Shown here: positions 564 to 58,950 of the stretch, one piece after another
How the letters are laid out: each line of letters begins with the position of its first letter
Numbering within the stretch: position 1 is the first letter of the stretch
Assembly: GCA_030737835.1 (NCBI GenBank)
Contig: JAUJYN010000027.1
Coordinates: 372,001-436,000 of the forward strand
Direction of reading: 5' to 3'
Source of the DNA: Acorus gramineus
Taxonomy: Eukaryota > Streptophyta > Magnoliopsida > Acorales > Acoraceae
Length of the DNA: 64,000 nucleotides
The notes under the pieces: model-generated
Seen by the model: the letters and a program-made list of their open reading frames with translations, nothing else
Told to the model about the DNA's origin: nothing
The model's database searches: none
Made by a program: the position numbers and the translations under genes

Positions 564-1107
564 TTATATATGTGTCACTTTTATCCTTCTGGTCACCATT
601 GGAACATTCTGGCAGTTTTTCAGCTTTTTCATTTTTCGATCAGAACCGCTAAAATTTTGGACTGTTAGCTATCGTTTTGAGCTTGAGGTCTCTGATTGAA
701 AATCTAACTGCATATTATGTGTCCTGGTGCCATTTCAAGCCACTCACGAAAATTTCATCGAATTCTGGTAACGTTTCAGAATTTCACAGTTCCGAAGCGT
801 ATCCGGGTTTTGACCGAGCGAGAAGTCATCGGGTGTTATATATGTGTCACTTTTAACCTTCCGGTAACCATTGGGACATTCTGGCAGTTTTTTGGTTTTT
901 TTCTTTTTTCGATCGGAACCGCTAAAATTTTGGACTCTTAGCTATCACGCTGAGTTTGAGGACTCCGATTGAAAATCTAACTGCATATTATGTGTCCTGG
1001 TGCCATTTTAAGCCACTCACGAAAATTTCATCGAATTCCGGTAACGTTTCAGAATTTCACAGTTCCGAAGCGTATCCGGGTTTTGACCGAGCGAGAAGTC
1101 ATTGGGA
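564..1107 (+). repeat. Tandem duplication of the LTR 5' end (~270 bp x2)
   Basis: The first ~270 bp of the type I LTR occur twice in direct tandem, 564-833 and 834-1107. The second copy restarts at TGTTATATATGTGTC. The distal halves, from the CTAACTGCATATTATG block onward, are nearly identical. The proximal halves are clearly more diverged, so later gene conversion or a composite origin is possible. Confidence 0.8.
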
Positions 1108-1286
1108 GACTTGACTTGGTCAAGGTGGGCCCATGACTTGGTCAACTCCTTTGGATTTTAATGTGGCTGGGTTGACTAGGATCAAACCTCACCTAAGTGC
1201 ACTTAAACCTCACTGATCCAAGCCTAAACCTAATTAATTAGCCTTAAGCTAAGTGTGGGTGTGAGAGTGTGTGGTGTGTGTGTGAG

Positions 1287-1296
1287 TATAATAAAA
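1287..1296 (+). promoter_or_regulatory. Putative LTR TATA box
   Basis: TATAATAAAA lies about 130 bp upstream of the first intron-like donor of this LTR. It is in the same relative position as the TATA-like boxes of the C, B and J LTRs. This is a prediction by motif and position only. Confidence 0.4.
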
Positions 1297-2747
1297 TCCC
1301 ACGACTACAAACAGCCCTCCTATTCATCATCTTCTCCAAATTTCTCTCTCTCTCCCTCTCTTTAATCCCCATTAAGACCTAGTTCAAGTGGTTGAAACCA
1401 AAAACCCTAAGAAGAGAAAAGATAGGTATTGTCCCGATCTATCTTCCGGTGGTCTCGGATTCGAGTTCCCTCTTGTGTGACCCCCTCTCATACCCTCTTT
1501 TCTCCTCTGTTTTCAGCCTTGCTTTGGCTGAGTGGAGATCTTGGTGGTGGTGGCCTTGGAGGTGGTGTTTCGGTGCGCGAAGAGCACCCGTTCTTCCTCC
1601 CCTTCCTTTCCTCTCCTTGGGTGAGTTTCCTTTCCTTCCTTTCTTGTTTAGATGCTTGATTAGGAGGTGTTTTTGGGTATGTATGGCTTTCATGGTGGTT
1701 TTGGTGGCTGTCTGTGGCGGTTGGGGTGGTTGTGCCGGCTCGGGTGTGCGAGCTCATCGGGCCTACGCGCGCAGGCAGGCAGGCAGGGCAGGCAGAGCAG
1801 GCTGGCAGGGCATGCGCGTGTGCGCACGGGAGTGCGCACGGGCGAGCGCGCGGGTGCTGCGCAGGGGGCGCAGTGCGTGCTGTGCGCGCGGGGCCGCGTG
1901 CGGGTGCTCCGCGCTGGGCGCCGTGCGGGGGCGTGTGCGCGGAGCGCTGCGCAGAGGCGCAATGCGTGCTGTGCGTGCGGGAGGCGAGCGGGTGGTGTGC
2001 GGGTGCTGTGCAGGGGGCGCAGTGAACGCAGGGCGAGCGGGGAGTGCATGCGGGGCGCTGCGCTGGGATGCAGTGCGGGCGGGTGTGCGCGTGAGGCGCT
2101 GCGCTGGGGCGCAGTGCGCGCGGGTGCATCCGGGGGCTCGACGCGCGGTGCGCACGGTGGCGTGTGCGTGCGTCCGAGCGTGCGGAGTGTCTGGGCTTGC
2201 GAGCTGGAACGTGGCTGTGCGCCCGGGGCGGGTGGCCGTGCGTACGGCTGCCCGGGGGTTCGGGAGTGAGTCGGGGTGCTCGGACTCGCGTGCGTACAGG
2301 CCGTATGTACGCTTGTCCGAGTGTTGGGTATTTTAGTGTATTTTTGTATATAATTGTGTATTTTACTCACCGAGTTGATTACCCTGTCTTGCAGATCTTG
2401 ATGCACGGTCACGCGATGACCCGGGCATTGGTGAGTGGGACAATCCAACCCAGTAGGGAGGCGCTATATGCACTTGGGCGTATACCGTCCTCCCCTGGGG
2501 CACCATAGTTTAATATTAACTTGTATAATATGTAATCTATGCAAGCATGATTAATATGTAGTATGCATGCTACCCTAGACCGTGTATGTTAGGGACTTGC
2601 ACCCTTAGCATATGTGTAAGAGCCATGCATCCTGTCACCATGTTCTCATGCTAGGAAGCCTCGACCTATGCATGTGTCCTATTAGTTTAATTTATTAAAT
2701 TAAATGTGAACTTATGGTATTTTAGCATGCCTTAGGGAATATTATAA

Positions 2748-2865
2748 GGGGCCTTGCGAGGTCAACATTGAGACCCGGGCTAGGGTACTCCGTGTTCCTT
2801 GTTTGGTTGTCGGGATATCCTATATCGGGACCTCATGGTGCCCTCCCAAGGTTTCTTTTCCCGAT
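2748..2865 (+). mobile_element. MITE-like module, copy 1
   Basis: A ~115-118 bp insert starts GGGGCCTTGCGAGG and ends CCAAGGTTTCTTTTCCC. It is flanked on both sides by AATATTATAA (2738-2747 and 2866-2875). The same LTR position in E and A lacks it and reads gaatattataacc. The ends carry imperfect inverted similarity: CCTTGCGAGG at one end and CCTTGGGAGG, read in reverse complement, at the other. It encodes nothing. It was probably a small non-autonomous DNA transposon with a 9-10 bp target duplication. Confidence 0.65.
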
Positions 2866-3794
2866 AATATTATAACCTCGTTATTATATTATGTGTCTCC
2901 CCGCATCTTAGTTATGCGCCCTGGAGGAATTCTGAAGAATTTATGACATTTATAAGTTGAGATCGGTGTTGGTGGATCCGAGTGGATCGTATGCGTATGG
3001 ATAGGCTGTTTCTTTTCCCTTCGTTGGATCCGTATAGAGACTGCCCCAGCGTTAGACAGGCCTTCCTGACAGAGGGCTCCCATCAGTAGGCACCTCCTGA
3101 TTTGGGTTCGGACTGTGCTGAATTGTGGGAACGGACCAGGCGGTCTACGGAGTAGAGGAGAGACTATCGGTGGACCAAGGGTGATTAACAGCCTAGTCAG
3201 TCCCAATATCCTATGTCACCTATTTGGAGGGTGAGGGTGAGGGTGTGGTGGGTCGGCGATGTTGCGACCCACTGGATTTGTGTATTTCCTGCCACTTTAG
3301 AGGCTTTGAATAATTTTGATGTTAATATGAATTGTGATGCATGGGTTGTGCTATTCACTGAGCGTGTGGCTCACCCCTCGCATAATTTTTCTCCAGTTAT
3401 CACTGAGTCGGACTTGAAGGAGGAGCTCCCCGAGAGACTTCATCAGTAGCGGAGCAGCGCCATGTCCCGCGAGTGTTAGAGGCCATCAGCATCCTTTTTT
3501 ATTGTATGTATTATATTTTCTGTGCTTGGGCACCCGTTTGTATATTATTTGGATGTATTGTGTATATTTGGCTCTCACAGGACAGTTGATTATGTATCGA
3601 GTCTGTAATGTGTTTTGATTACAGATTCAGTCTTTTAGCTTCCGCTATTTGTGTATATATCATGTCAGCCTCCTTGTTGTCTGTGTTGTCATTTTAACTG
3701 TTTGTTTAGGGTATGTTATTGACCTCCTGTATAAACTGCTGATATCATGTATACACTTGCCACGTCCCTGGGACGGCCGCCCTGGGGCGTGACA

Positions 3795-4606: not shown

Positions 4607-7600
4607 TGTTGTGCCCGTGTCATTTGGAGCAATATGATTGAAAATTTGGGTATATAATTTTTTTTCCTGGAAGTTATGTATTCCTGATTTAGTATTTGGA
4701 TTTGATTTTGTTAAAACCAAGATGAAGAGGTTTAAATATGAGTTTACGCTGAGATGTCCAGTTTTGAGTTAGCTTTCGTACAGAAGTGGAATTAGATCAA
4801 CTGGATTCTTGTAGAAAAAGTTATGGGTATTTTTCCAAGTATACCCCGGGGAGGGAAATTCTGGCAGCAGCCCTGCTCTATGTTTAGCTCTAATTTTGGA
4901 ATAGCTGGAGAGATTATTTGATCTTGGCATGAACATGAAAGTTGTAGATAATCTTCTTGGCTTTCCAACGGACTTGGAATTGTGCAATTCGGAGCTATAT
5001 CGAGGAAGTTATGGCTGTTCCAGTGAAGCATGCGCAGAATTTTTAGTCAAAGGGCGACTAGGTCATTCCATCCTTTTTAGATATTTGTGTGCAACAAATA
5101 TCTCCTCTCTCTCTCTCTCCCTCTCACTTCCACGCCTACATCTTGAGCTCCCTTTCTCTCTTTCACACACAAAGCCCCCCAAGTGTTTGCTTAAATGTCC
5201 CAATGAGAAGAAGAGAAGGAGGAGGTGATGGAAGAAGAGAAGGTTGTGCTTATGTGTTGTTGTTGTTTGTTCTCCCTTCTCTCAAGCTCCCCCTCATGAT
5301 CCTTCCCCCCTGATTTTCAGCTGAAGAGGAGGCTGAGGAGAGGCTGAAGGAGGGTGTTGGTCGTGGCGGTTGAGGTGGTCGCGGGTGCGTCGAGGGCCCC
5401 CGAACCTCCCCCTTTCTTTCCCTTCCAAAGGTGAGCCTTTCCCCTTCTTTTCTTGATTTTTATGGCTTAGGGTTGGTTGGGAGGGTCATGCATGTTGGGT
5501 AGATGTGTTAGGGTGTGTGTGAGGGGTTGGGAAGGGTTAAAAAGGGGTTAGGAGGGGCTGGGCGCGCGCTGGGCGCAGTCTGCGTGCGTGGGCGTGCAGG
5601 CGTGCGCAGGCAGGCGCTGGCTGGCGCGCAGATGCGCGCGGGCGCGTGCGCGCGAGTGCACGGGTGCGCGCGGAGTGGGTGCGCGGGTGCACGAGGGTGC
5701 TGGCGCGAGCGCGAGTGTGCGCGCGCGGAGCAATGCGCCTGGCATGTGCCTTGGCGCGGGGCTGGGGACCAGTGCGCGCGCGCGCGTGCTGGGGCGTGCG
5801 CGGGGTGCTGCGCGAGGGCGCGTGAGCTGGACGCGCAGTGCGCGCGGGCGTGCGCGAGCGTGCGGCAGCGCGTCTGGGCGTGCGGGCACGTTAGTGCGCA
5901 GATGGTGTTGGGGTGCGTGCGTGCGTGCGTGCGTGCGCATTCGTGCGTGCGCGTGCGGGGGGGCCATGTGTGTGGCTGCCCGAGGGTTCGGGTAGGTGTC
6001 GGGGCACTCGGACTCGCGTGCGTACGTGCGTGCTCGCATGCGAGCGTGTCCGTATGCATGCTTGTCCGAGTATTGGGTATTTCTAATAATTTCTATGTGT
6101 AAATTGTGTTGTTACTCACCAAATTCGATGCCCCTACCTTGCAGATCTCGTCGGATGGGATGCGCGAGGTCCCGGGTTATAAGGTGAGTGGTTTGATTCC
6201 AATCCCCCCCCCCTCTCTAGGGATGCGCTCGACCCGCATAGACGCGCGTCGCGCATCGATGGGGCCCCCTAGCTATAATATGTAAATACTATGTAATGCA
6301 TGTTATAATATGATGAAACCATGCCATATTAGACCTTGTATGCTAGGGATATGCATCCATATACCATGTATAGAGGCCCATACATGCCTAGACACCATGT
6401 CCCTTGATTTGAAAGCCCCGACCTACGCATGTTTCCCATTTTGTTTAAATTTATTTAAATCAAATGTGATTATATTGTTGTAAGCATGCCTTAGAGAATA
6501 TTATAACCTTGTTGTTATAAAATATGTTTCCCCGCATCTTAGTTATGCGCCCTGGAGGAATTCTTGAGAATTCATGACATTAGTAGTGTTAGAAATCGTT
6601 GTCGACGGATCCAACAGGATCGTACGCGCGTGAGTAGGCTGTCTTCTCCTTTTTGTTGGATGCGATGTAGGAACTCCCCGGCGTTGGCTGTACCTGACAG
6701 AGGGCTCCCGTCCGTAGGTACCTCCGATGTGTCGGACAGTACTGATAGCGGGAGTGGACTAGGTGGAGGCTACGAGGGTGGGAAAGGGCTACCGGGTGGA
6801 CCAGGGGTGGAGAGCGGTCTAGTCTGTCCCAAAAGACCCATGACACCCCAAAAAGGGTGAGCGTGGGGTGGATCGGCGATGTTACGACCCTCTAACTTGT
6901 GTAGTTACTCCCGTATAGGGACTATGACTACTTTAAGGTTAATATGAGTGTGTTGATTGTTGTTATGCCTGTGTTTGATATCTCGATAAGCGAGTATCGA
7001 GAGTGGTTGTTTTCCATTGGGTTTCGCTTTGCGAACATGGGATCGTTCTCCCCTTCGTTGGATCCGATGTAGGAACTCCCCGGCGTTGGCTGTACCTGAC
7101 AGAGGGCTCCCGTCCGTAGGTACCTCCGATGTTATATATGTGTCATTTTTAGCCTTCTGGTAACCATTGGAGCATTCTGGCAGTTTTTCAACTTTTTCGT
7201 TTTTCGATCGGAACCGCTAAAATTTTGGACTTTTACCTATCATCTTGAGCTTGAGGACTCCGATTGAAAATCTAACTGCATATTATGTGTCCTGGTGCCA
7301 TTTTAAGCCACTCACAAAAATTTCATCGAATTCCGGTAACGTTTCAGAATTTCGTAGTTCCGAATTGTATCCGGGTTTTGACCGAGCGAAAAGTCATTGG
7401 GAGCCTTGACTTGGTCAAATTTGACCTTTGACTTGGTCAATGGGTTTTGGTTTTTAGTGTGGTTGGGTTGACTAGGGTCAAAGTACAGTTAGACCTAACT
7501 AAACCTAGATTAACCTAATTTGTTTTTCACTAAGTGTGTGGTGAGTGTGTGAGTGTGTGTGTGGTGTGTGTGTGGGGACTTTAAGTCCACGCCTAGGCAT

Positions 7601-8039
7601 AGTAAATGCCCTATTCATCTTCTTCTCGACCAAAAGCTCTCTCTCATCTTCTCTCTTTTTCCACCATATGACCTAGTAGGGGTGGTTAAAATAAAAAACC
7701 CTAGAAGGAGAAAAGCAAGGTATTGTCCCGATCTATCCATCCATGGTTTCATTTTCGAGTTTCCTCATGTGTGACCCCCTCTCATAGCCTCTTTTCTCCC
7801 CTGTTTTCAGCCCTTCCTTGGCTGAGTGGAGATCTAGGTAGTGGTGGTCTTGGAGGTGGCGAATCGGTGCGCGAAGAGCACCCGTTCTTCCTCCCCTTCC
7901 CTTCCTCTCCTTGGGTGAGTTTCTTTCCTTCCTTTTCTTCTTTAGATGCATGTAAGGAGGTGTTTTTTGTTATGCATGGCTGTTGGGTGGTTGGAGGGGG
8001 CTGTTAGAGGTTGTTGGAGGTGTTAGGGTTGGCTCGGGT

Positions 8040-8500
8040 GCATGCGGGCTCACCGGCGCGCGTGCGAGCGAGCCTGCGTGCGCAGGAAGGCAGGCGCAAG
8101 CAGGCGAGCTGCGGTCAGGCGCGCTGGGCGCATGCTGTCAGGCTCGCTGGGCGCGTGCGGTTGGGCGCGCTGGGCGCAGTGCACGGCGTGCGCGCGGAGC
8201 GCTGCGCAGGGGCGCGTTGCGAGCAGTGTGCGCGGGGAGGCGAGCGGGCGTGCGCGCGGGGTGCTGCGCGGGGGAGCAGTGCGTGCGGGTGTGCGCGCAA
8301 GGTGCTGCGCTGGGGTGCAGTGCGCGCGGGTGCACCCGGGGCTGGACGCGCGGTAGCGGGTTTGGGCGTGCGAGCAGAGGCGCGGCAGCGGGTTTGGGCG
8401 CGCGGGCTGGGGCGCGGCAGTGTGCCCGGGGCTCGTGCGTGCGTGCGCGTGCGGGTGGCCGTGCGCATGGCTGCCTGGGGGTGCCGGGAGTGAGTCGGGG
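8040..8500 (+). repeat. CpG-dense hairpin array within the LTR intron
   Basis: An extremely CG-rich stretch is built from degenerate units such as GCGCTGCGCTGGGGCGCAGTG, in which TGCGC and GCGCA can pair. Equivalent blocks lie at about 1740-2280, 5540-5990, 15600-16090, 22260-22640, 27070-27560, 30640-31530, 36930-37830, 44780-45240, 53020-53290, 59350-59490 and 63230-63790. They are always between the second donor and the CTTGCAG acceptor. Long open frames in all six frames are a composition effect, not genes. Confidence 0.8.
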
Positions 8501-9451
8501 CACTCGGGCTCGCGTGCGTACGGGCCGTATGTACGCTTGTCCGAGTGTTGGGTATTTTTAGTGTATTTTTGTATGTATTGTGTATTTTACTCACCGTGTT
8601 GAATACCCTGTCTTGCAGATCTTGACGGACGGTCACGCGACGACCTGGATATTGGTGAGTGGGACAATCCAACCCAGTAGGGAGGCGTATATGTTCTTAG
8701 GCGTGTATCGTCCTTCCATGGGGCACCATAGTTTAATATTAACTTGTATAATATGTAATCTATGCAGGCAAGATTGTTATGTAGTATGCATGCCACCCTA
8801 GACCTTGTATGTTAGGGACTTGCACCCTTAGGATATGTGTAAGAGCCATGCATCCTGATACCATATTTTGATGCTTGGAAGCCTTGACCTATGCATGTTC
8901 CCATTTAGTTTAATTTATTTAAATCAAATGTGAGTTATTTAGTAATGAGCATGCTTAGTGAATATTATAACCATGGGTTATAATACAGGCTTCCCCGCAT
9001 CGTAGTTATGTGCCCTGGAGGAATTCGCAAGAATTCATGACATTTAAATTGTTAGGAAGATGTTCCCGACGGATCCGATTGGATCGTGTACATGTGGGTA
9101 GGCTGTTTCTGTTCCCTTCGTTGGATCCGTATAGAGATTGCCCCAGCGTTAGAAAGGCCGTCCTGACAGAGGGCTCCCAGCAGTAGGCACCTCCTGATTT
9201 GGTTTCGGACTGTGCTGAATTGTGGGAGTAGACCAGGCGGGCTACGGAGTGGAGGAGAGACTATCGGTGGACCAAGGGTGATTAACAGCCTAGTCAGTCC
9301 CAATAGCCGTGTCACCTATTGGAGGGTGAGGGTGAGGATGTGGTGGGTCGGCGATGTTACGACCCACTGGATTGTGTAGTTCCTGTCACTATGAGGCTTT
9401 GAATAATTTTATGGTTAATATGAATTGTGATGCACGGGTTGTGCTATTCAC

Positions 9452-9466
9452 TGAGCGTGTGGCTCA
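9452..9466 (+). other. Conserved 15-nt stem-loop before the last acceptor
   Basis: TGAGCGTGTGGCTCA forms a 5-bp stem with a 5-nt loop about 20 bp upstream of the TTCTCCAG acceptor. The same stem with changed loop bases occurs at 3359, 17037, 18158, 24240, 25376(-), 25856(-), 29253(-), 35556(-), 43554(-), 49957 and 60483. The unrelated LTR G has a relaxed form at 55529. The stem is kept while the loop is GTGTG in type I and TTGTA in E and K. Confidence 0.7.
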
Positions 9467-9892
9467 CCCCTCGCTTATTTTTCTCCAGTTATCACTGAGC
9501 CGGATCTGAAGGAGGAGCTCCCCGAGGGACTTCAGCAGTAGAGGAGCAGCGCCACATTCCCGCGAGTGTTAGAGGCTATCAACATCCCTTTTTGATTGTA
9601 TGTATATATTTCCGTGCTTGGGCACCCGTTTGTATTGTATTTGGATGTGTTTGTGTATATTGGCTCTCACAGGACAGTTGATTATGTATCGAGTCTGTAA
9701 TATGTTTTTGAATTACAGACTCAGTCTTTTAGCTTCCGCTATTTGTGTATATATCATGTCAGCCTTGCTTTTGTTTGTGTTGTCATTTTAGCTGTTGTTT
9801 AGAGTATGTTATTGACCTCCTGTATAGACTGCTGATATCATATATACACTTGCCGCGTCCCAGGGACGGCCGCCCTGGGGCGTGACAAAAGT

Positions 9893-9904
9893 TGGTATCA
9901 GAGC
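9893..9904 (+). other. Primer binding site of element A
   Basis: TGGTATCAGAGC lies five bases after the LTR end. It is the classic complement of the 3' end of plant initiator methionine tRNA, which primes minus-strand DNA synthesis. Confidence 0.95.
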
Positions 9905-10007: not shown

Positions 10008-11411
10008 ATGCCTCCTCACAGAGGACAGCACGGACGTGGTCCCTCTCGACCTTTGGAGGTTTTCGGACCTGCCAGAGGCGAGGATGCTACTGGAGAGTCC
10101 ACGGCTGTGAGGCCAGGATCGGCGCAGGAGCCTCATTCATGGGAGCGTGCGTTCGCTCGGATAGCGGATTTGGTGGAGACTCAGACAAGGGCACTGGAGG
10201 CCCAGACCAGAGTGTTGGCTGAGCAGGCACGAGAGATTCAGGAGCTGAGGGCGGCCCGTGATGCAGTTCCACAGGTCCCCTTGGTGGCAGATCCACCTGT
10301 GGTACCTGACGTACCCCTAGTCCCTGTGGTGATTCCGGCGGTGAGAGTTCAGGATCGTCAGGAGAGGGAGGTGGTGTTGGAGGCTGCAGCGCGGGTGCAT
10401 CAGAGTGGCCTCAGCGCCTTTCTGAAGCTCCACCCTCTCGAGTTCCATGGCCAGACGGCGGATCCCCTTGCCCCAGAGCGTTGGTTGATGGAGGTGGACA
10501 CGATCTTCTCGACCATGCATTGCACTGACCGCCAGCGAGTCTCCCTGGCCACCTTCATGCTGAAGGGTAGCGCCGCCGACTGGTGGGCTACCCGATCGGT
10601 GGACATCCCCGAGGGAGTGGAGCAGCTTTTATGGGCGGGATTCCAGAGGTATTTCTTGGAGGAGTACTTCCCATTCTCTACGCGCCAGATTGTGATGCAG
10701 GAGTTTGAGCAGTTGACGCAGGGCTCCATGTCTGTCGCTGACTACTCCACGCGCTTCACGAGGCTTTCCAGATTCACCCCAGCCTTGGTGATGGATGAGG
10801 AGACGCGGTGCCGTCGTTTCGAGCTTGGTCTCAGTAGCGCCATTCGGGTGCATGTCACCTCCCAGGCTTTCACGAGGTACTCGGACTTGGTGTCTCGGGC
10901 GAAGACAGTCGAGCGAGACCTCGGGATCTCAGTGAGGGTTCCGACCCCTTCTACAGACCAGAGACCTCCCAGGAGCCAGGACCAGGGACAGCACAAGAAG
11001 AAGAGGCCCCGCTTTGATCAGTCAGCGGCTGCCTCTCCTCCAGTCGATGTGGTGCCAGCGCGAGGTCCAGCACCCATTGCGGCAGTGCCAGTCCAGGCCA
11101 GGCGACCGGAGACGCGGCGCTGTTACCACTGTCAGCGCATCGGGCATATCTTGTATAATTGTCCTGATACTGGCTGACCCCGCGTGATGCCTCCGCAGCA
11201 ACAGCAGCAGTTACCGCAGCAGTTCCAACAGCAGCCTCAGCGCCAGCAGCAGCAGCAGCCTCAGCGTCAGCAGCAGCAGCCACAGGGTGGCCGTGTTGAC
11301 CAGAGGAGGCAGCCAGCACAGCCGGCAAGGCATGCCCCTGCTCCTCAGCCGCAGTTTATTCTTGGCTGAGTGACAGCGCTTTCGGCAGAGGAGGCTTAGG
11401 CTTCGGGTAGC
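10008..11411 (+). pseudogene. gag: Element A gag (capsid/nucleocapsid), stop-interrupted
   Basis: Gag forms the virus-like particle in which reverse transcription happens. The frame opens at ATG 10008 (MPPHRGQHGRGPSRPL). It has a coiled, E/Q-rich stretch at residues ~45-80, the retroelement Gag core at ~140-290 ([22 protein letters not shown]) and one CCHC knuckle, [14 protein letters not shown], starting at residue 372 (11121). A Q-rich linker follows. Stops interrupt the frame at 11175 (CGA to TGA), 11367 (CGA to TGA) and 11397 (CAG to TAG), judged against element C. All are C-to-T changes expected from methylcytosine decay. The frame is the same as pol, so Gag-Pol was one fused ORF. Confidence 0.93.
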
Positions 11412-14841: not shown

Positions 14842-17475
14842 TGTTATATTATGTGTCCTGGTGCCATTTCAAGCCACTCACGAAAATTTCATCGAATTCC
14901 GGTAACGTTTCAAAATTTTGTAGTTCTGAATCGTATCCGGGTTTTGACCGAGCGAAAAGTCATTGGGAGACTTGACTTGGTCAAATTTGACCTTTGACTT
15001 GGTCAATGGGTTTTGGTTTTTAGTGTGGTTGGGTTGACTAGGGTCAAAGTACACTTAGACCTAACTAAACCTAGCTTAACCTAATTTTTTTTTCACTAAG
15101 TGTGTGGTGAGTGTGTGAGTGTGTGTGTGGTGTGTGTGTGGGGACTTTAAGTCCACGCCTAGGCATAGTAAATGCCCTATTCATCTTCTTCTCCACCAAA
15201 AGCTCTGTCTCATCTTCTCTCTTTTTCCACCATATGACCTAGTAGGGGTGGTTAAAATCAAAAACCTAGAAGGAGAAAAGCAAGGTATTGTCCCGATCTA
15301 TCCATCCATGGTTTCATTTTCGAGTTTCCTCATGTGTGACCCCCTCTCATAGCCTCTTTTCTCCCTGTTTTCAGCCCTTCCTTGGCTGAGTGGAGATCTA
15401 GGTGGTGGTGGTCTTGGAGGTGGCGAATCGGTGTGCGAAGAGCACCCGTTCTTCCTCCCCTTTCCTTCCTCTCCTTGGGTGAGTTTCTTTCCTTCCTTTT
15501 CTTGTTTAGATGCATGTTAGGAGGTGTTTTTGGTTATGCATGGCTGTTGGGTGGTTGGAGGGGGCTGTTAGGGGCTGTTGGAGGTGTTAGGGTTGGCTCG
15601 GGTGCATGCGGGCTCACCGGCGCGCGTGCGCGCGAGCCTGCGCGCGCAGACAGGCAGGCGCATGCAGGCAGGTGCAGGCGGGTGAGCTGCGGTCAGGCAC
15701 GCGGGGCGCGTGCTGTCGGGCTCGCTGGGTGCGTGCGGTCGGGCGCACTGGGCGCAGTGCACGGCTTGCGCGCGGAGCGCTGTGCAGGGGCGCGTTGCGT
15801 GCGGTGTGCGCGGGGAGGCGAGCGGGGGTGCGCGCGGGGTGCTGCGCTGGGGCGTAGTGCGTGCGGGTGTGCGCGCAAGGTGCTGCGCTGGGGCGCAGTG
15901 CGCGCAGGTGAACCCGGGGCTGGACGCGGGGTGCGCAAGGGCACGCGCGAGCGTGCGCGCGGCGTGCGGCGGGTCTGGGCGCGCGGGCTGGGGCGCGGCA
16001 GTGCGCCCGGGGCTCCGGCGTGCGTGCGTGCGTGCGCACCCGGGTGGCCGTGCGCATGGCTGCCCGGGGGTGCGGGAGTGAGTCGGGGCACTCGGGCTCG
16101 CGTGCGTGCGGGCCGTATGCACGCTTGTCCGAGTGTTGGGTATTTTTAGTGTATTTTTGTATGTATTTGTGTATTTTACTCACCGTGTTGAATACCCTGT
16201 CTTGCAGATCTTGACGGACGGTCACGCGACGACCCGGGTATTGGTGAGTGGGACAATCCAACCCAGTAGGGAGGCGTATATGCTCTTAGGCGTGTATCGT
16301 CCTTCCATTGGGCACCATAGTTTAATATTAACTTGTATAATATGTAATCCATGCAGGCATGATTGTTATGTAGTATGCATGCCACCCTAGACCTTGTATG
16401 TTAGGGACTTGCACCCTTAGGATATGTGTAAGAGCCATGCATCCTGATACCATATTTTGATGCTAGGAAGCCTTGATCTGTGCATGTTCCCATTTAGTTT
16501 AATTTATTTAAATCAAATGTGAGTTATTGGTAATGAGCATGCTTAGTGAATATTATAACCATGAGGTTATAATACAGGCTTCCCCGCATCGTAGTTATGC
16601 GCCCTGGAGGAATTCGCAAGAATTCATGACATTTAAATTGTTAGGAAGATATTGCCGACGGATCCGATTGGATCGTGTACGTGTGGGTAGGCTGTTTCTG
16701 TTCCCTTCGTTGGATCCGTATAGAGACTGCCCCAGCGTTAGAAAGGCCTGACAGAGGGCTCCCATCAGTAGGCACCTCCTGATTTGGGTTCGGACTGTGC
16801 TGAATTGTGGGAGTAGACCAGGCGGGCTACGGAGTGGAGGAGAGACTATCGGTGGACCAAGGGTGATTAACAACCTAGTCAGTCCCAATAGCCGTGTCAC
16901 CTATTGGAGGGTGAGGGTGAGGGTGTGGTGGGTCGGCGATGTAGCGACCCACTGGATTGTGTAGTTCCTGTCACTATGAGGCTTTGAATAATTTTATGGT
17001 TAATATGAATTGTGATGCATGGGTTGTGCTATTCACTGAGCGTGTGGCTCACCCCTCGCATATTTTTCTCCAGTTATCACTGATTCGGATTTGAAAGAGG
17101 AGCTGCCCGAGGGACTTCAGCAGTAGCAGAGCAGCGCCACATTCCCGCGAGTGTTAGAGGCCATTAGCATTCCTTTTGATTGTATGTATTATTTTTTTTT
17201 CCGTGCTTGGGCACCAGCTTGTATTATATTTGGATGTGCTTGTGTATATTGGCTCTCACAGGACAGTTGATTATGTATCGAGTCTGTAATATATTTTTGA
17301 ATTACAGACTCAGTCTTTTAGCTTCCGCTATTTGTGTATATATCATGTCAGCCTTGCTTTTGTCTGTGTTGTCATTTTAGCTGTTGTTTAGAGTATGTTA
17401 TTGACCTCCTGTATAGACTGCTGATATCATATATACACTTGCCGCGTCCCGGGGCGACTGCCCTGGGGCGTGACA
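14842..17475 (+). repeat. Element A 3' LTR (2634 bp)
   Basis: It matches the 5' LTR but begins tgttatattatgtgtcc, so ~146 bp of the U3 start have been lost between two TTATAT-like sites. Exon-like blocks are at 15375-15478 (104 bp), 16208-16243 (36 bp) and 17074-17126 (53 bp, ending CAGCAGTAG). The CpG block is at about 15600-16090. The right edge is followed by TCCGA and then E's LTR. Confidence 0.92.
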
Positions 17476-18583
17476 TCCGATGTGTCGGACAATACTGATA
17501 GTGGGAGTGGACTAGGTGGAGGCCACGAGGGTGGGAAAGGGCTACTGGTGGACCAAGGGTGTAGAGCGGTGAGTTGAGGAGATCGGGTTGTAGATACTAC
17601 CCGGGAGAGGGTTAACGAATGATGTTACGGGCGTGGGAATCGTTCTCCCCTTCGTTGGATCCGATGTAGGAACTCCCCGGCGTTGGCTATACCTGTCAGA
17701 GGACTAGGCGGAGGCCACGAGGGTGGGAGAGGCTACCGGTGGACCAGGGGTGTAGAGCTGTCTAAGTCTCTTCCCAAAGTCCCAAGATGTCTCCTTTCAC
17801 GAGTGAGGGTGTGGATGAGGTGAAGACACGTCACCTCGTGACCCATTCGTTGTTCGACCGTTCCCATAGTTGTTTGGTCCGGTCTCGTGATCGATGTTGA
17901 AGGACATCGTTGGGCGATTATCTAGATGTAGATGATCCAGTAGTGTTGAGTAGACCAGTAAATCCGGGTCTCTTCGACCGACGGTATGGTCTCTCCCCAT
18001 AAGTCCCAAGAGACTCCCTCCGGGAGTGAGGGTGGGGGTGAGGTTGGTCGCGCCGCCGCGTGACCCAGTATTCCATGGGTTTCTACCCATGTTTTCCTTG
18101 AAAGGAAATTGATTATGTATTGAACTGTAGAATGGTGATTGGTTTCCAGCCACTCACTGAGCTTGTAGCTCACCCCCTCGCATACTGTTTCTTTTTAGGG
18201 GCAGTGTTGGGCGTGGAGCTGGAGCTTTCCTGTGGCGTGGTCTTATGGGCGTGGAGCGTTCTGCCGGCGGGTGGCGAGTGAGAGGCTGTCAGCATTCCTA
18301 GAGTCATTTTATGCTTTGTAAATCATGCATGTGGCACAGGTTGTATTTTCTTTGGTCTAGACTTGGCTTTCACAGGACATTGATTGTGTATTCGGGTCTG
18401 TAATAATGTTTTTGATTTACAGACATTGTTATATATTATGCTTCCACTTTTCAGTCAGTTATCATTATCTTGCTTGCCACCTTGTGTATTGTTGTTGGTG
18501 TCCTTATTGACCTCAGGTATTGATAGCTGATATTTATTATTGCCACGTCTCGGGGACGGCCGCCCTGGGGCGTGACAAAAAGT

Positions 18584-21304: not shown

Positions 21305-24300
21305 TGTTGTGCCTCTGTCATTTGGAGCACTCTGATTGAAAATTCGGGTACATAATTTTTTTTCCTAGAAGTTATGTATTCCTGATTTGGTATTTGGATT
21401 TGATTTTGTTAAAATCCAAGATGAAGAGGTTTAAATATGAGTTTACTATGAGATGTCCAGTTTTGAGTTAGCTTTCGTACAAAAGTGGAATTAGATCAAC
21501 TGGATTCTTGTAGTAAAAGTTATGGGTATTTTTCCAAGTATACCCCGGGGAGGGAAATTCTTGCAGCAGCCCTGCTCTATGTTTAGCTCTAATTTCGGAA
21601 TAGCTGGAGAGATTATTTGATCTTGGCATAAACATGAAAGTTGTAGATAATTTTCTTGACTTTCCAACGGACTTGGAATTGTGCAATGCAGAGTTATTTT
21701 GTCGAAGTTATTGCTGTTCTAGTGAAGCATGCGCAGAATTTCTAGTCAAAGGGCGACTAGGTCATTTCCATCCTTTTTAGATATTTGTGTGCAACAAATA
21801 TCTCCTCTCTCTCTCTCTCTCCCTCTCACTTCCACGCCTACATCTTGAGCACCATTTCTCTCTTTCACACACAAAGCCCCCCAAGTTTTTGTTTAAATGT
21901 CCCAATGAGAAGAAGAGAAGGAGGAGGTGATGGAAGAAGAGAAGGTTGTGCTTATGTGTTGTTGTTTGTTCTCCTCTCTCTCAAGCTCCCTCTCATGATC
22001 CTCCCCCCCTGATTTGCAGCCAAGAAGGAGGCTGAGGAGAGGCTGAAGGAGGGTGTTGGCCGTGGCGGTTGAGGTGGTCGCGGGTGGGTCGAGGGCCCCC
22101 GAACCTCCCCCTTTCTTTCCCCTCCAAAGGTGAGCCTTTCCCCTTCTTTTCTTGATTTTTATGGCTTAGGGTTGGTTGGGAGGGTCATGCATGTTGGGTA
22201 GATGTGTTAGGGTGTGTGTGAGGGGTTGGGAAGGGTTAAAATGGGGTTAGGAGGTGCTGGCGGGTGCGCAAATGCGCGCGGGTGAGTGCGCGCGAGTGCG
22301 CGGGTGCGCGTAGAGTGGGCGCGCGCGAGGGTGCTGGCGCGAGCGGGAGTGCGCGCGGGGAGCAATGCGAATGGGCATGCGCTTGGGCGCGGGGCTGGGG
22401 ACCAGTGCGCGCGCGTGCGCGTGCGTGCGCATGCTGGGGCGTGCGCGGGGTGCTGCGCGAGGGCGCGTGGGCTGGACGCGCAGTGCGCGCGGGCGCGCGC
22501 GTGCGTGCCGCAGCGCGTCGGGGCGCGCGGGCAGGCGCGCGACAGTGCGCTGATGGTGTTGGGGTGCGTGCGTGCGTGCGTGCGCATTCGTGCGTGCTCG
22601 TGGGGGGGGGGGTCATGCGTGTGGCTGCCCGAGGGTTCGGGTAGGTGTCGGGGCCCTCGGACTGGTGTGCGTACGTGCGTGCTCGCATGCTTGCGAGTCC
22701 GTATGCATGCTTGTCCGAGTATTGGGTATTTCTAGTAAATTTCTATGTGTAAATTGTGTTGTTACTCACCAAATTGGATGCCCCTACCTTGTAGATCTCG
22801 TCGGATGGGATGCGCGAGGTCCCGGGTTGTAAGGTGAGTGGTTTGATTCCAATCCCCCCCCCCCCCTCTCTAGGGATGCACTCGACCCGCATAGACGCGC
22901 GTCGCGCATCGATGGGCCCCCCTAGCTGTAATGTGTAAATACTATGTAACGCATGTTATAATATGATGAAACCATGCCATATTAGACCTTGTATGCTAGG
23001 GATATGCATCCATATACCATGTATAGAGGCCCATACATGCCTAGACACCATGTCCCTTGATTTGAAAGCCCTGACCTACGCATGTTTCCCATTTTGTTTA
23101 ATTTATTTAAATCAAATGTGATTATATTGTTGTAAGCATGCCTTAGAGAATATTATAACCTTGTTGTTATAATATATGTTTCCCCGCATCTTAGTTATGC
23201 ACCCTGGAGGAATTCTTGAGAATTCATGACATTAGTAGTGTTAGAAATCGTTGTCGACGGATCCAACAGGATCGTACGCGCGTGAGTAGGCTATCTTCTC
23301 CTTTTGGTTGGATCCGATGTAGGAACTCCCCGACGTTTGCTGTACCTGATAGAGGGCTCCCGTCCGTAGGTACCTCCGATGTGTCGGACAGTACTGATAG
23401 CGGGAGTGGACTAGGTGGAGGCTACGAGGGTGGGAAAGGGCTACCGGGTGGACCAGGGGTGGAGAGCGGTCTAGTCTGTCCCAAAGGACCCATGACACCC
23501 CAAAAAGGGTGAGCGTGGGGTGGATCGGACAGTACTGGTAGTGGGAGTGGACTAGGTGGAGGCCACGAGGGTGGGAAAGGGCTACTGGCGGACTAACGGT
23601 GTAGAGCGGTGAGTTGAGGAGATTGGGTTGTAGATACTACCCAGGAGAGGGTTAACGAATGATGTTACGGGCGTGGGAATCGTTCTCCCTTCGTTGGATC
23701 CGATGTAGGAACTCCCCGGCGTTGGCTATACCTATCAAAGGACTAGGCGGAGGCCACGAGGGTGGGAGAGGCTACCGGTGGACCAGGGGTGTAGAGCAGT
23801 CTAAGTCTCTTCCCAAAGTCCCAAGTGGTCTCCTTTCAGGAGTGAGGGTGTGGATGAGGCGAAGACACGTCGCCTCGTGACCCATTCGTTGTTCAACCGT
23901 TCCCATAGTTGTTGGGTCCGGTCTCGTGATCGATGTTGAAGGACATCGTTGGGCGATTATCTAGATGTAGATGATCTAGTAGTGTTGAGTAGACCAATAA
24001 ATCCGGGTCTCTTCGACCGACGGTATGGTCTCTAGACCAGTAAATCCGGGTCTCTTCGACCGACGATATGGTCTCTCCCCATAAGTCCCAAAAGACTCCC
24101 TCCGGGAGTGAGGGTGGGGGTGAGGTTGGTCGCGCCGCCGCGTGACCCAGTATTCCATGGGTTTCTACCCATGTTTTCCTTGAAAGGAAATTTATTAGGT
24201 ATTGAACTGTAGAATGGTGATTGGTTTCCAGCCACTCACTGAGCTTGTAGCTCACCCCTCGCATACTGTTTCTTTTCAGGGGCAGTGTTGGGCGTGGAGC

Positions 24301-24659
24301 TGGAGCTTTCCTGTGGCGTGGTCTTATGGGCGTGGAGCGTTCTGCCGGCGGGTGGCGAGTGAGAGGCTGTCAGCATTACTAGAGTCATGTTATGCTTTGT
24401 AAATCGTGCATGTGGCACAGGTTGTATTTTCTTTGGTCTAGACTTGGCTTTCACAGGACATTGATTGTGTATTCGGGTCTGTAATAATGTTTTTGATTTA
24501 CAGACATTGTTATATATTATGGTTCCGCTTTTCAGTCAGTTATCAGTATCTTGCTTTGCCGCCTTGTGTATTGTTGTTGGTGTCCTTATTGACCTTAGGT
24601 ATTGATAGCTGATATTTATTATTACCACGTCTCGGGGACGGCCGCCCTGGGGCGTGACA
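21305..24659 (+). repeat. Element E 3' LTR (3355 bp)
   Basis: A type II LTR. It holds a GT/AG-like junction set parallel to type I: donor aaag|gtgagc near 22130, acceptor at ~22795 (cttgtag) and a 39-bp exon-like block ending at donor GTGAGT near 22832. The last acceptor, TTTCTTTTCAG, is near 24280. A CpG block lies at about 22260-22640. A local tandem duplication of agaccagtaaatccgggtctc lies near 23990-24075. No gene. Confidence 0.9.
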
Positions 24660-25430: not shown

Positions 25431-28419
25431 TGTCACGCCCCAAGGCGGCCGTCCCCGGGTCGCGGCAAGTGTATACAAGATATCAGCAGTCTAAACAGGG
25501 AATCAATAAATCACTCTAAACAACAACTAGAATGACAACAACACAGATGAAAGCAAGGCTGACATAATATATACACAGATAGTGGAAGCTAAAAGACTGA
25601 GTCTGTAATCCAAAAACATACTACAGACTCGATACAAATCAAACGTCCTGTGTGAGCCAATATATACACATACATCCAAATAATACACAACTGGGTGCCC
25701 AAGCACAGAAATATATACATACAATAAAAGGGAAGGATGCTGATGGCCTCAAAAACTCACGGGACGTAGCGCTACTCCGCTACTGGTGCAGTCGCTCAGG
25801 GAGCTCCTCCTTCAAGTCCTCCTCAGTAATCACTGGAAAAATAATATGCGAGGGGTGAGCCACACGCTCAGTGAACAACACAACCCATGCATCACAGTTT
25901 ATATCAACCACAAATAATCAACAACCAGCCCCAAAGTGGCTTAACAACATAATCCAGTGATTCGTTACATCGCCGAACCACCATACCCTCACCCTCACCC
26001 CTCAATAGGTGACATAGGATATTGGGACTTATAATCATCCATACACATCCATACACCCTCACCCTCACCCCTCAATAGGTGGCATAGGATATTGGGACTG
26101 ACTATCATCCATACACATCCATACCCATCCATACACCCTCACCCTCACCCCTCAACAGGTGACATAGGATATTGGGACTGACTAGGCTGTTAATCATCCT
26201 TGGTCCACTGATAGCCTCTCCTCCACACCGTAGCTTGCCTGGTCTACTCCCACATTCAGCACAGTCCGAGTCCAAGATCAGGAGGTGCCTACTGATGGGA
26301 GCCCTCTGTCAGGATAGCCTGTCTAACGCTGAGGAGTTCCTACACGGATCCAACGAAGGGAAGAGAAACAGCCTACCCACACGCATATGATCCACTCGGA
26401 TCCGTCGACAACACATCTGTACAACTCTAATGTCTTGAATTCTTCAGAATCCTCTAGGGCGCATAACCAGGATGCGGGGAACATGCATTAATATAGAAGG
26501 GAAAAGAAACCTTGGGAGGGCACCATGAGGTCCCGATATAAGACGTCCCGACAACCAAACAAGGAACATAGAGCACCCTAGCCCAGGTCTCAATGTTGAC
26601 CTCGCAAGGCCCCTTAATATTCCCTAAGGCATGCAATAATATTACCAGTTACATTTCATTTAACAAATTAAACTAATAGGAGCATACAAAGGCCGAGGCT
26701 TTCCTAGCATGATAACAAGGTGACAAGATGCATGGCTCTTACACAACCTAAGGGTGCAAGTCCATAACTTACTCAGTCTAGGGTAGGATGCATACTACAT
26801 ATCAATCATGCTGCATGGATTACATATTTAACAGGTTAATATTAATCTATGGTGCCCCAGGGGAGGACGGTATATGCCCAAGTGCATATAGTGCCTCCCA
26901 ACTGGGTTGGATTGTCCCACTCATCGGTAGTCGGGTCGTCGCACGACCGTCCGTCAAGATCTGCAAGACAGGGTATCAACTTGGTGAGTAAAATCCACAT
27001 ATACACCTAAATACTCAAAAATACACAAATAAATACCCAACACTCGGGCAAACGTGCATACGGCCCGTACGCACGCTAGCCCGGGCACCCCGACTCACTC
27101 CCGCAGCCCCGGCAACCATCCGCACGGCCACCCACCCCCGGATGCACCACCGCGCCCCAGCCCGCGCACCCAGGCGCCCTGCCGAGCCCCTGCCCGCACG
27201 CCAGGACGCGCCTCCGAGCTCCCTGGGTGCACCGCGGGCTCAATGCGCCCCAGTGCAGCCTCGCCCCGCGCGCACCACCGCTCGCCTCGCCGCGCACCCC
27301 GCGCGCACCACCGCTCGCATCACCCACTCGACCAGCACCCCCAGCACGCCCACCGCCCAGCACGCCCAGCACACCCGCGCCTGCGCCACCCGAGCGCACG
27401 CCCGCACGCACGTCCGCGCCCACGCGCGCGCGCGCCCTGCCACTGCATGTCTGCTGCGCTGCTTGCTGCGCCTGTGCTGCCATCCTACCCGGGACAGACA
27501 CCCACTCTGCCCGAGCACCTCTACCACCAACCACCGGCCACCAATGGCCTCTGACCGCCCCCAACCACCACCGACAGCCACCAGCCGCCCTCCACACCCA
27601 ACCATACCCTCCTAACATGCATCTAAACATGACAAGAAGGAAAGAAAACCCTTACCCAAGGAAAGGAGAGGAAAGGAAGGGAACCGGAGGATCTTCGTGC
27701 ACCGAAACGCCTCCCAACGGATCTCCACCACCAAGACCTCTTCCTACCTCAAATGGGGCTGAAAACAGGGGAGAATAGAGGGGGTTAGAGGGGGCCAAAC
27801 TTGTCAGAACTCGAATCCGAGAACACCGGGGGATAGATCGGGACCGGATCTAACCTTTCTATGTTTTGGGTTTTGAGTTTTGAGAACTCTAGGTGGCTCA
27901 AAACCAAGAAAAGGAGAGAGGGGGAGAGAGAAAACTCATTTGAGAAGATGATGAATAATGGGGGAGACTTTTAGATTTCACTTAAATATGTCAAACCACT
28001 TGGATTAGGGTTAACCAAACTTAATTAGGGCTAAGAGAGGTTTAGGGGGGGTTTTAAGTGGGCTTTGACTTGGGTCAACCCAACCACACAAAAAAAACAA
28101 AAAGGGTTGACCAAGTCATGAGCCCACTTTGACTGAGTCAACTCTCCCAATGACTTCTCGCTCGGTCAAAACCTTGATACGCCCCGGAACTGTGAAATTT
28201 CGGAAACGTTACCAGAATTCGATGAAAATTTCGTGAGTGGCTTAGAATGGCACCAGGACACATAATATGCAGTTAGATTTTCAATCGGAGTCCTCTAGCT
28301 CAGGACGATAGCTAACAGTCCAAAATTTTGCGGTTCCGATCGAAAAACAAAAAAAACTCAAAAACTGCCAAAATGCTCCAATGGTTACCAGGAGGCCAAA
28401 AAGTGACACATATATAACA
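25431..28419 (-). repeat. Element C 3' LTR (2989 bp)
   Basis: It matches 43130-46177. The last exon-like block is at 25780-25832 and reads VITEEDLKEELPERLHQ-stop. Exon 3 is at 26925-26960, but its donor has changed from GTGAGT to ATGAGT, unlike the 5' LTR. Three tandem ~70-bp units with CACCCTCACCCTCACCC lie at 25979-26180. A MITE-like copy is at 26499. Confidence 0.9.
26499..26613 (-). mobile_element. MITE-like module, copy 3
   Basis: The module in C's 3' LTR is flanked by ttaatat-type repeats and is in the same LTR position as copy 1 at 2748. The paired copy in C's 5' LTR is at 44198. Confidence 0.6.
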
Positions 28420-28824: not shown

Positions 28825-29860
28825 TGTCACGCCCCAGGGCGGCCGTCCCCGGGACGCAGCAAGTGTATATATAATATCAGAAACTACACAGGAGGTCAAT
28901 AATATATCACACACAAACAACCAGAATGACACACAGGCAACAAAGGGGCTGACATGATATATACACCAAATGCGGAAGCAAAAGACTGAATCTGTAAATA
29001 AACATTCTACAGACTCGATACTCAATCATCTGTCCTGTGAGAGCCAATATACACCAATACGACTGAACACATACAGACGCGTGCCAAGCACGATAACACA
29101 ATACAAACAGTCAAGAAGGGATGCTGATAACCTCTGGTACTCGCGGAACGTGGCGCTGCTCCGCTACTGAAGGAATCCCTCGGAAAGCTCCAACTGCTGC
29201 TCCGGCTCCAGCTCAGGCTCAGTGACCACTGGGGAAAAACATATGCGAGGGGTGAGCCACACGCTCAGTGAACAGCACAACCCATGCATCACAGACAATA
29301 TTTACCACAATTCAATTATTTATCCAACCTCTAAGTGGCATAACAACATAATCCAGTGGTTCGTACATCGCCGAACCACCACACCCTCACCCTCACCCAT
29401 CAATGGGTGACATAGGCTGTTGGGACTGATAATCATCCAACCACAAATCCAGTAGGTCGCTCATCGCCAACCCACTACACCCTCACCCTCACCCTGCCAC
29501 GGGTGACATAGGATATTGGAACTGACTAGGCTGTTGGTCACCCTTGGTCCACCGATAGTCTCTCCTCCACTCCGTAGGCCGCTGGCCTTCACCCATAACT
29601 TCAGCACAGTCCGTCACAAATATCGGGAGGCGCCTACTGATGGGAGCCCTCGAAAGGGACGACCTTATCACGCTGGGGCAGTCTCTACACGGATCCAACG
29701 AAGGGAAACAGAACAGCCCATCCATACGCATATGATCCACTCGGATCCGCCGACAACACATCTCTACAACTCAAATGTCATGAACTCTTCAGAGTTCCTC
29801 CAAGGCGCATAACCAAGATGCAGGGAACACGTACAATAAAAGCAAGGTTGTAATATCATT

Positions 29861-29979
29861 GGGGGAAAGAACTCGGGAGGGCGGCGTGAGTTCCCGATAT
29901 AGGATACCCCGACAACCAAACAAGGAACACGGAGTACCCTAACCCGGGTCTCACCGCTGTCCTCGCAAGGCCCCTCCCC
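29861..29979 (-). mobile_element. MITE-like module, copy 4
   Basis: The more diverged of two adjacent modules in B's 3' LTR (ends aaagaactcggg and ggcccctccc). ATAATATT flanks its right side. Confidence 0.55.
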
Positions 29980-30042
29980 TATAATATTCACTAAATATGC
30001 TGATAATCATACCAGTTATATAACATTACTTATAATATTAAT

Positions 30043-30161
30043 GGGACTAGAAACCTTGGGAGGGCAGCATGAGGTCCCGATACAGGACATCCCGACAACC
30101 AAACAAGGAACACGGAGTACCCTAACACGGGTCTCAATGTTGACCTCGCAAGGCTCCTCCC
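30043..30161 (-). mobile_element. MITE-like module, copy 5
   Basis: Second module of the tandem pair. It is flanked by TATAATATTA on the left and TATAATATTA on the right, which supports separate insertion or duplication together with its target. Confidence 0.6.
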
Positions 30162-35123: not shown

Positions 35124-36162
35124 ACTTTTTGTCACGCCCCAGGGCGGCCGTCCCCGGGACGCGGCAAGTGGATATATAATATCAGAACTACACAGGAGGT
35201 CAATAATATATCATACACAAACAACCAGAATGACACACAGACAACAAAGGGGCTGACATGATATATACACCAAATGCGGAAGCAAAAGACTGAATCTGTA
35301 AATAAACATACTACAGACTCGATACTCAATCATATGTCCTGTGAGAGCCAATATACACCAATACGACTGAATATACACAGACGCGTGCCAAGCACGAAAA
35401 TAAAATACATACAGTCAAGAAGGGATGCTGATAACCTCTGGTACTCGCGGAACGTGGCGCTGCTCCGCTACTGAAGGAATCCCTCGGAAAGCTCCAACTG
35501 CTGCTCCGGCTCCAGCTCAGGCTCAGTGACAACTGGGGAAAACATATGCGAGGGGTGAGCCACACGCTCAGTGAACAGCACAACCCATGCATCACAGACA
35601 ATATTTACCACAATTCCATTATTTATCCAACCTCTAAGTGGCATAACAACATAATCCAGTGGTTCGTACATCGCCGAACCACCACACCCTCACCCTCACC
35701 CATCAATGGGTGACATAGGCTATTGGGACTGATAATCATCCAACCACAAATCCAGTAGGTCGCTCATCGCCAACCCACTACACCCTCACCCTCACCCTAC
35801 CACGGGTGACATAGGATTTTGGGACTGACTAGGCTGTTGGTCACCCTTGGTCCACCGATAGTCTCTCCTCCACTCCGTAGGCCGCTGGCCTTCACCCATA
35901 ACTTCAGCACAGTCCGTCACAAATATCGGGAGGCGCCTACTGATGGGAGCCCTCGAAAGGGACGACCTTATCACGCTGGGGCAGTCTCTACACGGATCCA
36001 ACGAAGGGAAACAGAACAGCCCATCCATACGCATATGATCCACTCGGATCCGCCGACAACACATCTCTACAACTCAAATGTCATGAACTCTTCAGAGTTA
36101 ATCAAGGCGCATAACCAAGATGCGGGGAACATGTACAATAAAAGCAAGGGTGTAATATCATT

Positions 36163-36280
36163 GGGGGAAAGAACTCGGGAGGGCGGCGTGAGTTCCCGAT
36201 ATAGGATACCCCGACAACCAAACAAGGAACACGGAGTACCCTAACCCGGGTCTCACCGCTGTCCTCGCAAGGCCCCTCCC
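36163..36280 (-). mobile_element. MITE-like module, copy 7
   Basis: Counterpart in B's 5' LTR of copy 4. Same ends and same neighbours. Confidence 0.55.
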
Positions 36281-36344
36281 CTATAATATTCACTAAATAT
36301 GCTAATAATCATACCAGTTATATAACATTATTTATAATATTACT

Positions 36345-36463
36345 GGGACTAGAAACCTTGGGAGGGCAGCATGAGGTCCCGATACAGGACATCCCGACAA
36401 CCAAACAAGGAACACGGAGTACCCTAACACGGGTCTCAATGTTGACCTCGCAAGGCTCCTCCC
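36345..36463 (-). mobile_element. MITE-like module, copy 8
   Basis: Counterpart in B's 5' LTR of copy 5. Flanked by TATAATATTA-type sequence on both sides. Confidence 0.6.

Positions 36464-53767: not shown

Positions 53768-53812
<45 letters not shown>

Positions 53813-58918: not shown

Positions 58919-58950
<32 letters not shown>

Follow-up and report, generated by a model that had tools for sequence, protein, structure and literature searches.

Why would a retrotransposon keep the outline of a multi-exon gene inside its long terminal repeat (LTR)? The question is raised by a stretch of 64,000 nucleotides (nt) from the plant Acorus gramineus (assembly GCA_030737835.1, contig JAUJYN010000027.1, positions 372,001 to 436,000; hereafter the window), a nest of Ty3/gypsy elements in which gag, aspartic protease, reverse transcriptase (RT), RNase H (RH) and integrase (INT) lie in Ty3/gypsy order between LTR pairs (Pfam Retrotrans_gag, RVP_2, RVT_1, RT_RNaseH, Integrase_H2C2 and rve, in order and in a single frame). 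An earlier note on this DNA had pointed out that a GT...AG multi-exon layout recurs in the LTRs, and had proposed a spliced leader with a constrained small open reading frame (ORF). Over 13 LTR copies the layout holds as a set of sequence features. Judging from the sequence, the long LTR probably contains a spliced, mostly non-coding leader for the translation of gag, and the unspliced RNA would serve as the genome.

The layout is most easily followed in the 5′ LTR of element A (A5; the suffixes 5 and 3 denote the 5′ and 3′ LTR of an element), which runs from 7130 to 9887 on the forward strand, has TG...CA termini and is the reference copy. Predicted exon 1 (7612–7719) is set to start at a conserved TATTCATC, the putative transcription start, and ends at the donor AAG|GTATTG. 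Predicted exon 2 (7811–7914; 104 nt, with no ATG) lies between TTTTCAG| and TGG|GTGAGT, and predicted exon 3 (8619–8654), a micro-exon of 36 nt, between CTTGCAG| and |GTGAGTGG. Predicted exon 4 (9489–9597) contains a TAG at 9539–9541 and ends at a candidate donor, |GTATGT, at 9598. From here a fourth intron, the least certain of the four, would extend to 9998 (401 nt, 40% T; ATT|GTATGT to TTTTCTTAG|), taking in the last part of the LTR as well as the primer binding site (PBS; TGGTATCAGAGC, 9893–9904) and stopping before the gag reading frame (10008–11177), all on the same strand.

How well are these sites kept? The 13 copies come from two families: ten from the main family (two each of elements A, D and E, plus S1, C8, C9 and J) and, from the second, B5, B3 and X49, to which the end fragments X50 and X25 are added. 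(The earlier note's B is the E type here, and its E is B5/B3.) The exon-2 donor and the exon-3 acceptor are present in all 13, the exon-3 donor has its GT in 12 (AT in D3; GTTAGT in C8), and the exon-4 acceptor is found in 12 of the 12 stretches that reach it, the X50 and X25 fragments included. The exon-2 acceptor is kept in 11 of 13 copies and an exon-1 AG|GT at the homologous place in 10 of 13 (that of X49 lies 18 nt upstream); E5 and E3 lack both. These E-type LTRs (38575–35130 and 32310–28825) have lost the two together, both ends of intron 1 being altered, with TTTTGGACC replacing TTTTCAGCC at the acceptor, whose absence there the earlier note had already reported; exons 1 and 2 would be fused. 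When exon 3 is aligned in 12 copies, its acceptor AG is invariant, as is its donor GTGAGTGG save for one base in D3; in C8, the two sites flank an insertion, one on each side. Most acceptors are preceded by pyrimidine tracts and by CTCAC, CTCAT or CTAAC, which resemble branch points. When the 44 sites of introns 1–3 are scored with a splice-site matrix, 35 rank in the top ten of the 80–273 candidates in each comparison.

The exon lengths can be compared in the same way. Exon 2 has 104 nt in the five copies for which this had been stated and 103 nt in three (D5 at 45520, D3 at 27758 and J at 62979), not in two as previously counted; the second-family copies B5 and X49 have 110 and 113 nt, respectively. 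The remaining lengths were given correctly: exon 3 has 36 nt in nine of nine main-family copies that are whole there, and also in X49, and 39 nt in B5 and B3, while exon 4 up to its stop measures 53 nt in six copies but is longer, at 65 nt, in the two of E type. It ends in CAGTAG in eight of eight main-family copies and in none of four from the second family (B5, B3, X50 and X25). The codon split between exons 3 and 4 is GTT or GTG, and so Val, in eight of eight. Searched for as DNA in the window, the main-family spliced junctions of exons 2–3 and of exons 3–4 gave no match each (the exon 1–2 junction and the other types were left out of this search). Both the introns present in the LTR copies and the absence of these two junctions fit an unspliced RNA as the template for reverse transcription. 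The conservation of any single site proves little, since roughly 24% of the GT and AG dinucleotides are retained anyway (41 of 174 GT and 31 of 132 AG between 7612 and 9700 of A5 are kept in all compared lineages). Counted column by column, the exon-1 donor is kept in two of five other lineages, and the exon-2 donor and acceptor in four of five; these lower figures result from AG|GT having shifted by a few bases and from the loss in the E type.

More weight is carried by the depletion of ATG in the predicted exons. This test is independent of the splice sites: a leader that is scanned by ribosomes should lack ATG, and introns need not. In one LTR from each of six main-family elements (S1, A5, D5, C9, E5 and J), there are 6 ATG in predicted exons and 230 in introns. 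Equally large blocks placed at random in these LTRs contain 38.0 on average, and none of 5000 draws was as low as the exons. The exon/intron ratio of ATG, 0.13, is the lowest of all trinucleotides; AGT, GAT, TAG and TGA are not depleted (0.89–1.22), and GTA stands at 0.40. With dinucleotide shuffling, the 6 ATG compare to 15.6 expected (2 of 2000 shuffles as low), and with exon 1 left out, 3 compare to 13.4 (0 of 2000). Taken exon by exon over eight main-family copies (seven each for exons 2 and 4), shuffling gives 0 ATG against 4.0 for exon 2, 2 against 4.8 for exon 3 and 1 against 7.2 for exon 4 (766 nt in total). Exon 1, with the fused E exon included, shows no depletion (5 against 5.0), and intron 3 has 235 against 207. 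Three exon ATGs of S1 align with mostly ACG in the other copies, presumably through decay of methylated CpG. Like the sites and their conservation, this pattern is seen directly in the DNA. It supports the first half of the earlier proposal, a spliced leader, as does the retention of splice sites across two diverged families, the ATG depletion being that of the main family.

The most interesting part of the layout is also its least certain, the fourth intron. Before gag, the unspliced leaders of A5, D5 and E5 hold 47, 60 and 58 ATGs, respectively. Removal of introns 1–3 leaves 9, 8 and 7, all but 0–1 of which lie at or past the ATT|GTATGT of exon 4 (ACT|GTATGT in E5), and removal of intron 4 as well would leave 1, 1 and 0. 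In A and D, an acceptor-like TTTTCTTAG|GTTGCTGATATG immediately precedes the ATG of gag; element B has a related TTATCTTAG|GTTGCTGACATG, and in E the stretch has a one-base change and the gag ATG is lost. The candidate intron measures about 395–403 nt and has 38–40% T, compared to 14–34% T in the exons of A5 and D5. By the same matrix, its donor ranks 12th of 202 in A5, 12th of 209 in S1, 16th of 243 in D5 and 23rd of 273 in E5, and its acceptor 9th of 154 in A5, 7th of 167 in D5 and 14th of 87 in B5. The DNA after exon 4 is T-rich and TGTA-rich and would also resemble a plant 3′ end, as if exons 1–4 made up a short RNA ending in the same LTR, for example a regulatory non-coding RNA. This is quite improbable: a 3′ end would not need an exon 4 so poor in ATG, and an acceptor-like TT(T/A)TCTTAG|GTTGCTGA(T/C)ATG precedes gag in A, D and B.

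Several observations weigh against a spliced leader. Nine of the 44 scored sites of introns 1–3 rank below the top ten: the exon-1 donor in S1 (11th), B5 (22nd of 176) and X49 (119th of 186), the exon-2 donor in D5 (13th), the exon-3 donor in X49 (56th of 186), the exon-2 acceptor in A5 (14th), D5 (11th) and C9 (28th of 123), and the exon-4 acceptor in E5 (19th of 204). Stronger candidates go unused, and the best acceptor of A5 and D5 (9942 and 43075) is located just past the PBS, between it and the acceptor of intron 4. At the intron-4 donor, position −1 is a T, the sequence is GTATGA in C9 and GTTTGT in E3, and B and X have nothing equivalent in that column. Exons are not clearly more conserved than introns overall: exon 2 and intron 1 both stand at 0.67, though exon 3 stands at 0.81 and intron 2 at 0.54; past exon 3 the values are depressed by gaps of the truncated copy J, and such distortion makes the comparison uninformative. 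Intron 2, at 67–72% GC and 18–23% T in A5, D5 and E5, is odd for a plant intron. Finally, the exons of B5 hold 7 ATG where 3.2 would be expected (1997 of 2000 shuffles had no more), and those of B3 hold 8. When B5 and X49 (1 ATG against 2.1) are pooled with the six elements, there are 14 against 21.2 (61 of 2000), and the test is weakened. The pol end of B has many stops and B may be a long-dead copy, yet the ATGs sit in the same exons of both of its LTRs.

Could the exons be translated instead? In this alternative, the joined exons would be read as a short conserved peptide (…DLDGRSRDDP…VITE.DLKEELPE…stop) maintained by purifying selection; its translation might begin at a non-AUG codon, or it might serve as a regulatory upstream ORF. 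The frame is preserved by the 36 nt of exon 3 and the 53 or 65 nt of exon 4. Within exon 4, the ratio of nonsynonymous to synonymous change (pN/pS) among five copies is 0.24 in the peptide frame and 0.97 and 2.38 in the other two, and 10 of 21 changes are synonymous where 4.7 are expected (P 0.004), or 8 of 18 without A3, the second LTR of element A (P 0.03); these P values are uncorrected for the choice of frame and exon. All five variable columns of the DLKEELPE codons in S1, A5, A3, D5 and C9 are synonymous, just as the earlier note had observed. On the other hand, exon 3 alone shows no such excess (6 of 17, P 0.41), and the peptide frame has no ATG in any copy (the earlier note had seen no conserved one). 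The exon-2 frame that corresponds to the one of A and S1 fails to continue into DLDGRSRDDP in the D, J and E types, a TAA interrupts the peptide frame of exon 3 in B5 and B3, and the exon-4 peptide is missing from the second family. No database protein of about 35–110 residues had three 5-residue words in common with a blended joined peptide, nor did Pfam give a match for four joined peptides. A translated peptide is an unlikely reading, and of the constrained small ORF there is left the synonymous excess in exon 4, a weak and unexplained signal, set against the missing ATG, the broken exon-2 frames and the TAA of B5 and B3. A further candidate for translation fails. Spliced to the end of pol as a C-terminal extension, exons 3–4 of the 3′ LTR would need no ATG, but pol of A and D ends in an ordinary stop (…PHLFPS*) before the polypurine tract, and the only donor that looked suitable, AAG|GTGCGA, is out of phase with exons 3–4 (phase judged by eye).

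The same negative searches bear on the idea that the exons were acquired from a host gene, which has nothing but their multi-exon look in its favor. Besides the lack of a Pfam match and of a homologue in that size range, the layout is common to two diverged LTR families, and capture is hardly credible. A different alternative is that the conserved blocks are other DNA or RNA signals (for transcription control, packaging or integration) that happen to resemble splice sites. Some blocks are indeed conserved beyond what splicing needs. Before the exon-4 acceptor stands the block CACTGAGC(G/T)TGT(G/A)GCTCACCCC (9449–9473, with homologues at 11 other places), whose 25 nt are identical in eight of eight main-family copies, more than a branch point would require. 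Over the branch-point region of intron 3 it holds a 5-bp hairpin, TGAGC-loop-GCTCA, which is intact in 11 of 12 copies and has one broken pair in X25. Similarly, GGTGAGTGGGACAATCCAACCC at and after the exon-3 donor (8654–8675) is identical in eight of ten main-family copies and has one mismatch in the other two. Such signals would leave unexplained both the ATG depletion within the exons and the fact that the E type lost a donor together with its acceptor, which makes this alternative unlikely as well. Of 57 predicted pairs in the alignment from exon 4 to the LTR end, four show two-sided changes, all long-range; support from covariation is absent because the local hairpins are nearly invariant. 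Rfam gave no match at the gathering threshold, and the pattern CACTGAGYKTNTRGCTCACCCC had no match in viral contigs and one in a Rhodopseudomonas contig, taken as chance. A further conserved hairpin, GTCTGTAA...TTACAGAC, is found near the LTR end (9693–9720 and homologues), and another at its extreme end.

How, then, might a spliced leader work? The transcription start, the splicing itself and the two RNA pools are what we infer. Transcription would start near the conserved TATTCATC within the LTR, and the spliceosome would excise the three LTR introns and, less surely, a fourth reaching from the LTR through the PBS to just before the gag ATG. Splicing would trim a leader of 2.4–3.3 kb with 47–60 upstream ATGs to about 0.36–0.46 kb with 0–1, and ribosomes could reach gag because the leader had been cleared of upstream ATGs. 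RNA that escapes splicing would retain the whole LTR and the PBS and would act as the genome for reverse transcription. Genomic copies would keep their introns because it is the unspliced RNA that is reverse transcribed, and splicing would have to be partial, since some unspliced RNA is needed as genome. As speculation, the TGAGC-loop-GCTCA hairpin could restrain the splicing of intron 3. More tentatively, and with some doubt on our part, the LTR repeat region would be built of exons and introns with the PBS in the last intron, so that one splicing decision sorts the transcripts: spliced RNA would be translatable and never reverse transcribed, and unspliced RNA would be reverse transcribable and hardly translated, given some 50 upstream start codons. 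How retroelements separate messenger from genome is an open question, to which PBS-bearing LTR introns would be a simple answer. Should the same blocks turn up in relatives from other plants, the arrangement would amount to a general strategy by which long-LTR chromoviruses are expressed. LTR introns could also explain the great length of some plant LTRs, and solo LTRs are predicted to supply nearby genes with ready-made promoters and first exons.

The other copies are distributed over the whole window. On the forward strand, the solo LTR S1 (834–3794) has its exons at 1321–1425, 1517–1620, 2395–2430 and 3397–3503; it is directly preceded by a partial copy of the LTR start (563–833, 92% identity). 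The 3′ LTR of element A (14846–17475), truncated at its 5′ end, has them at 15178–15284, 15375–15478, 16208–16243 and 17074–17181. Copy C8 (first part 52134–53420, exon 2 at 52797–52900) is broken within exon 3 and resumes at 55951–56488; the insert between (53421–55950) is DNA without a match to other LTRs in the window. C9 (58519–60918) has exons at 58912–59035, 59127–59230, 59652–59687 and 60523–60625, and J (62319–64000), cut by the window end, at 62778–62882, 62979–63081 and 63905–63940. On the reverse strand lie the LTRs of D and E. The 5′ LTR of D (43130–46177) has exons at 45721–45617, 45520–45418, 44659–44624 and 43530–43422, and its 3′ LTR (25431–28419) has exon 2 at 27758 and an exon-3 donor altered to ATGAGT. 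The E-type 5′ LTR (35130–38575), in which intron 1 is lost, has a fused exon at 38280–37989 followed by 36812–36777 and 35532–35413; the 3′ LTR (28825–32310) has the same layout. In the second family, B5 begins at 4607–7129 on the forward strand (exon 2 at 5321–5430, exon 3 at 6145–6183) and continues at 17476–18577 (exon-4 acceptor at 18199), B3 (21305–24659, forward strand) has the same layout, and the partial X49 (46939–49453, reverse strand) has exon 2 at 48809–48697 and exon 3 at 48177–48142. Intron 2 (7915–8618 in A5) is GC-rich (67% GC in A5, 72% in E5) with CGCGCG runs and varies in length among copies; several long ORFs on both strands overlap such runs.

What kind of elements are these? 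They are Ty3/gypsy and probably chromoviruses. Main-family LTRs begin and end in TGTTATATATGTGTCA…GGGGCGTGACA, the PBS is found at 9893, 18584, 35123 and 43124 (18584 being that of the second family), and a AAGGGGGGAA-type polypurine tract precedes the 3′ LTRs. The pol tail of A and D, ...WELEDAMRDAYPHLFPS*, resembles the C-terminal chromodomain that the Tekay (Del) lineage carries after integrase; the three proteins scanned with Pfam, which exclude this tail, gave no chromodomain match. Eight of 7996 database proteins scored match the gag frame of element A, seven of them from Acorus gramineus (best 88% identity) and one weakly. In the E element, the DNA after MVRG in gag (33700–33130, minus strand) resembles the LTR/intron-3 part of the second family. 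The Acorus gramineus gene models P0002, P0004, P0005 and P0007 leave Gag near the same point, and P0005 and P0007 share part of their tail; in a subfamily, gag and protease may be separated by an insert or intron derived from an LTR.

Are there precedents for such a layout? In deltaretroviruses and foamy viruses, the major splice donor lies in the R region of the LTR, with acceptors far downstream; unlike this single donor, the Acorus LTR would hold several whole introns. The titles and abstract openings of the literature searched gave no description of introns inside plant LTRs. Plant LTR retrotransposons are generally intronless, with exceptions that include Ogre and EVADE (according to a 2025 review, PMC12786077). 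The introns predicted here lie in the LTR and leader, and not inside gag-pol as in BARE1, EVADE and Ogre. BARE1 of barley, a Ty1/copia element, divides its RNA, as is proposed here, into one pool that is translated and another that is replicated, and splices one of the two, but its 104-nt intron is located where the protease domain begins and yields a Gag-only RNA (PMC3735527), whereas the predicted Acorus introns lie upstream of gag; CRR is a further spliced gypsy element (PMC3735527). In EVADE (ATCOPIA93) of Arabidopsis, also Ty1/copia, the spliced RNA is well translated and the unspliced RNA, mostly nuclear, is the replication template, much as proposed here, but the intron is in the coding part and tied to premature polyadenylation (PMC8892269). 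Ogre, a Ty3/gypsy plant element of the Tat lineage, resembles the Acorus elements in removing its intron from a subset of transcripts, and differs in having it between the gag-protease and RT-RH-INT frames (PMC6317226). Plant pararetroviruses of the CaMV type share the long leader with short upstream ORFs; these viruses use ribosome shunting (PMC5902531), whereas in the Acorus elements splicing would remove the leader.

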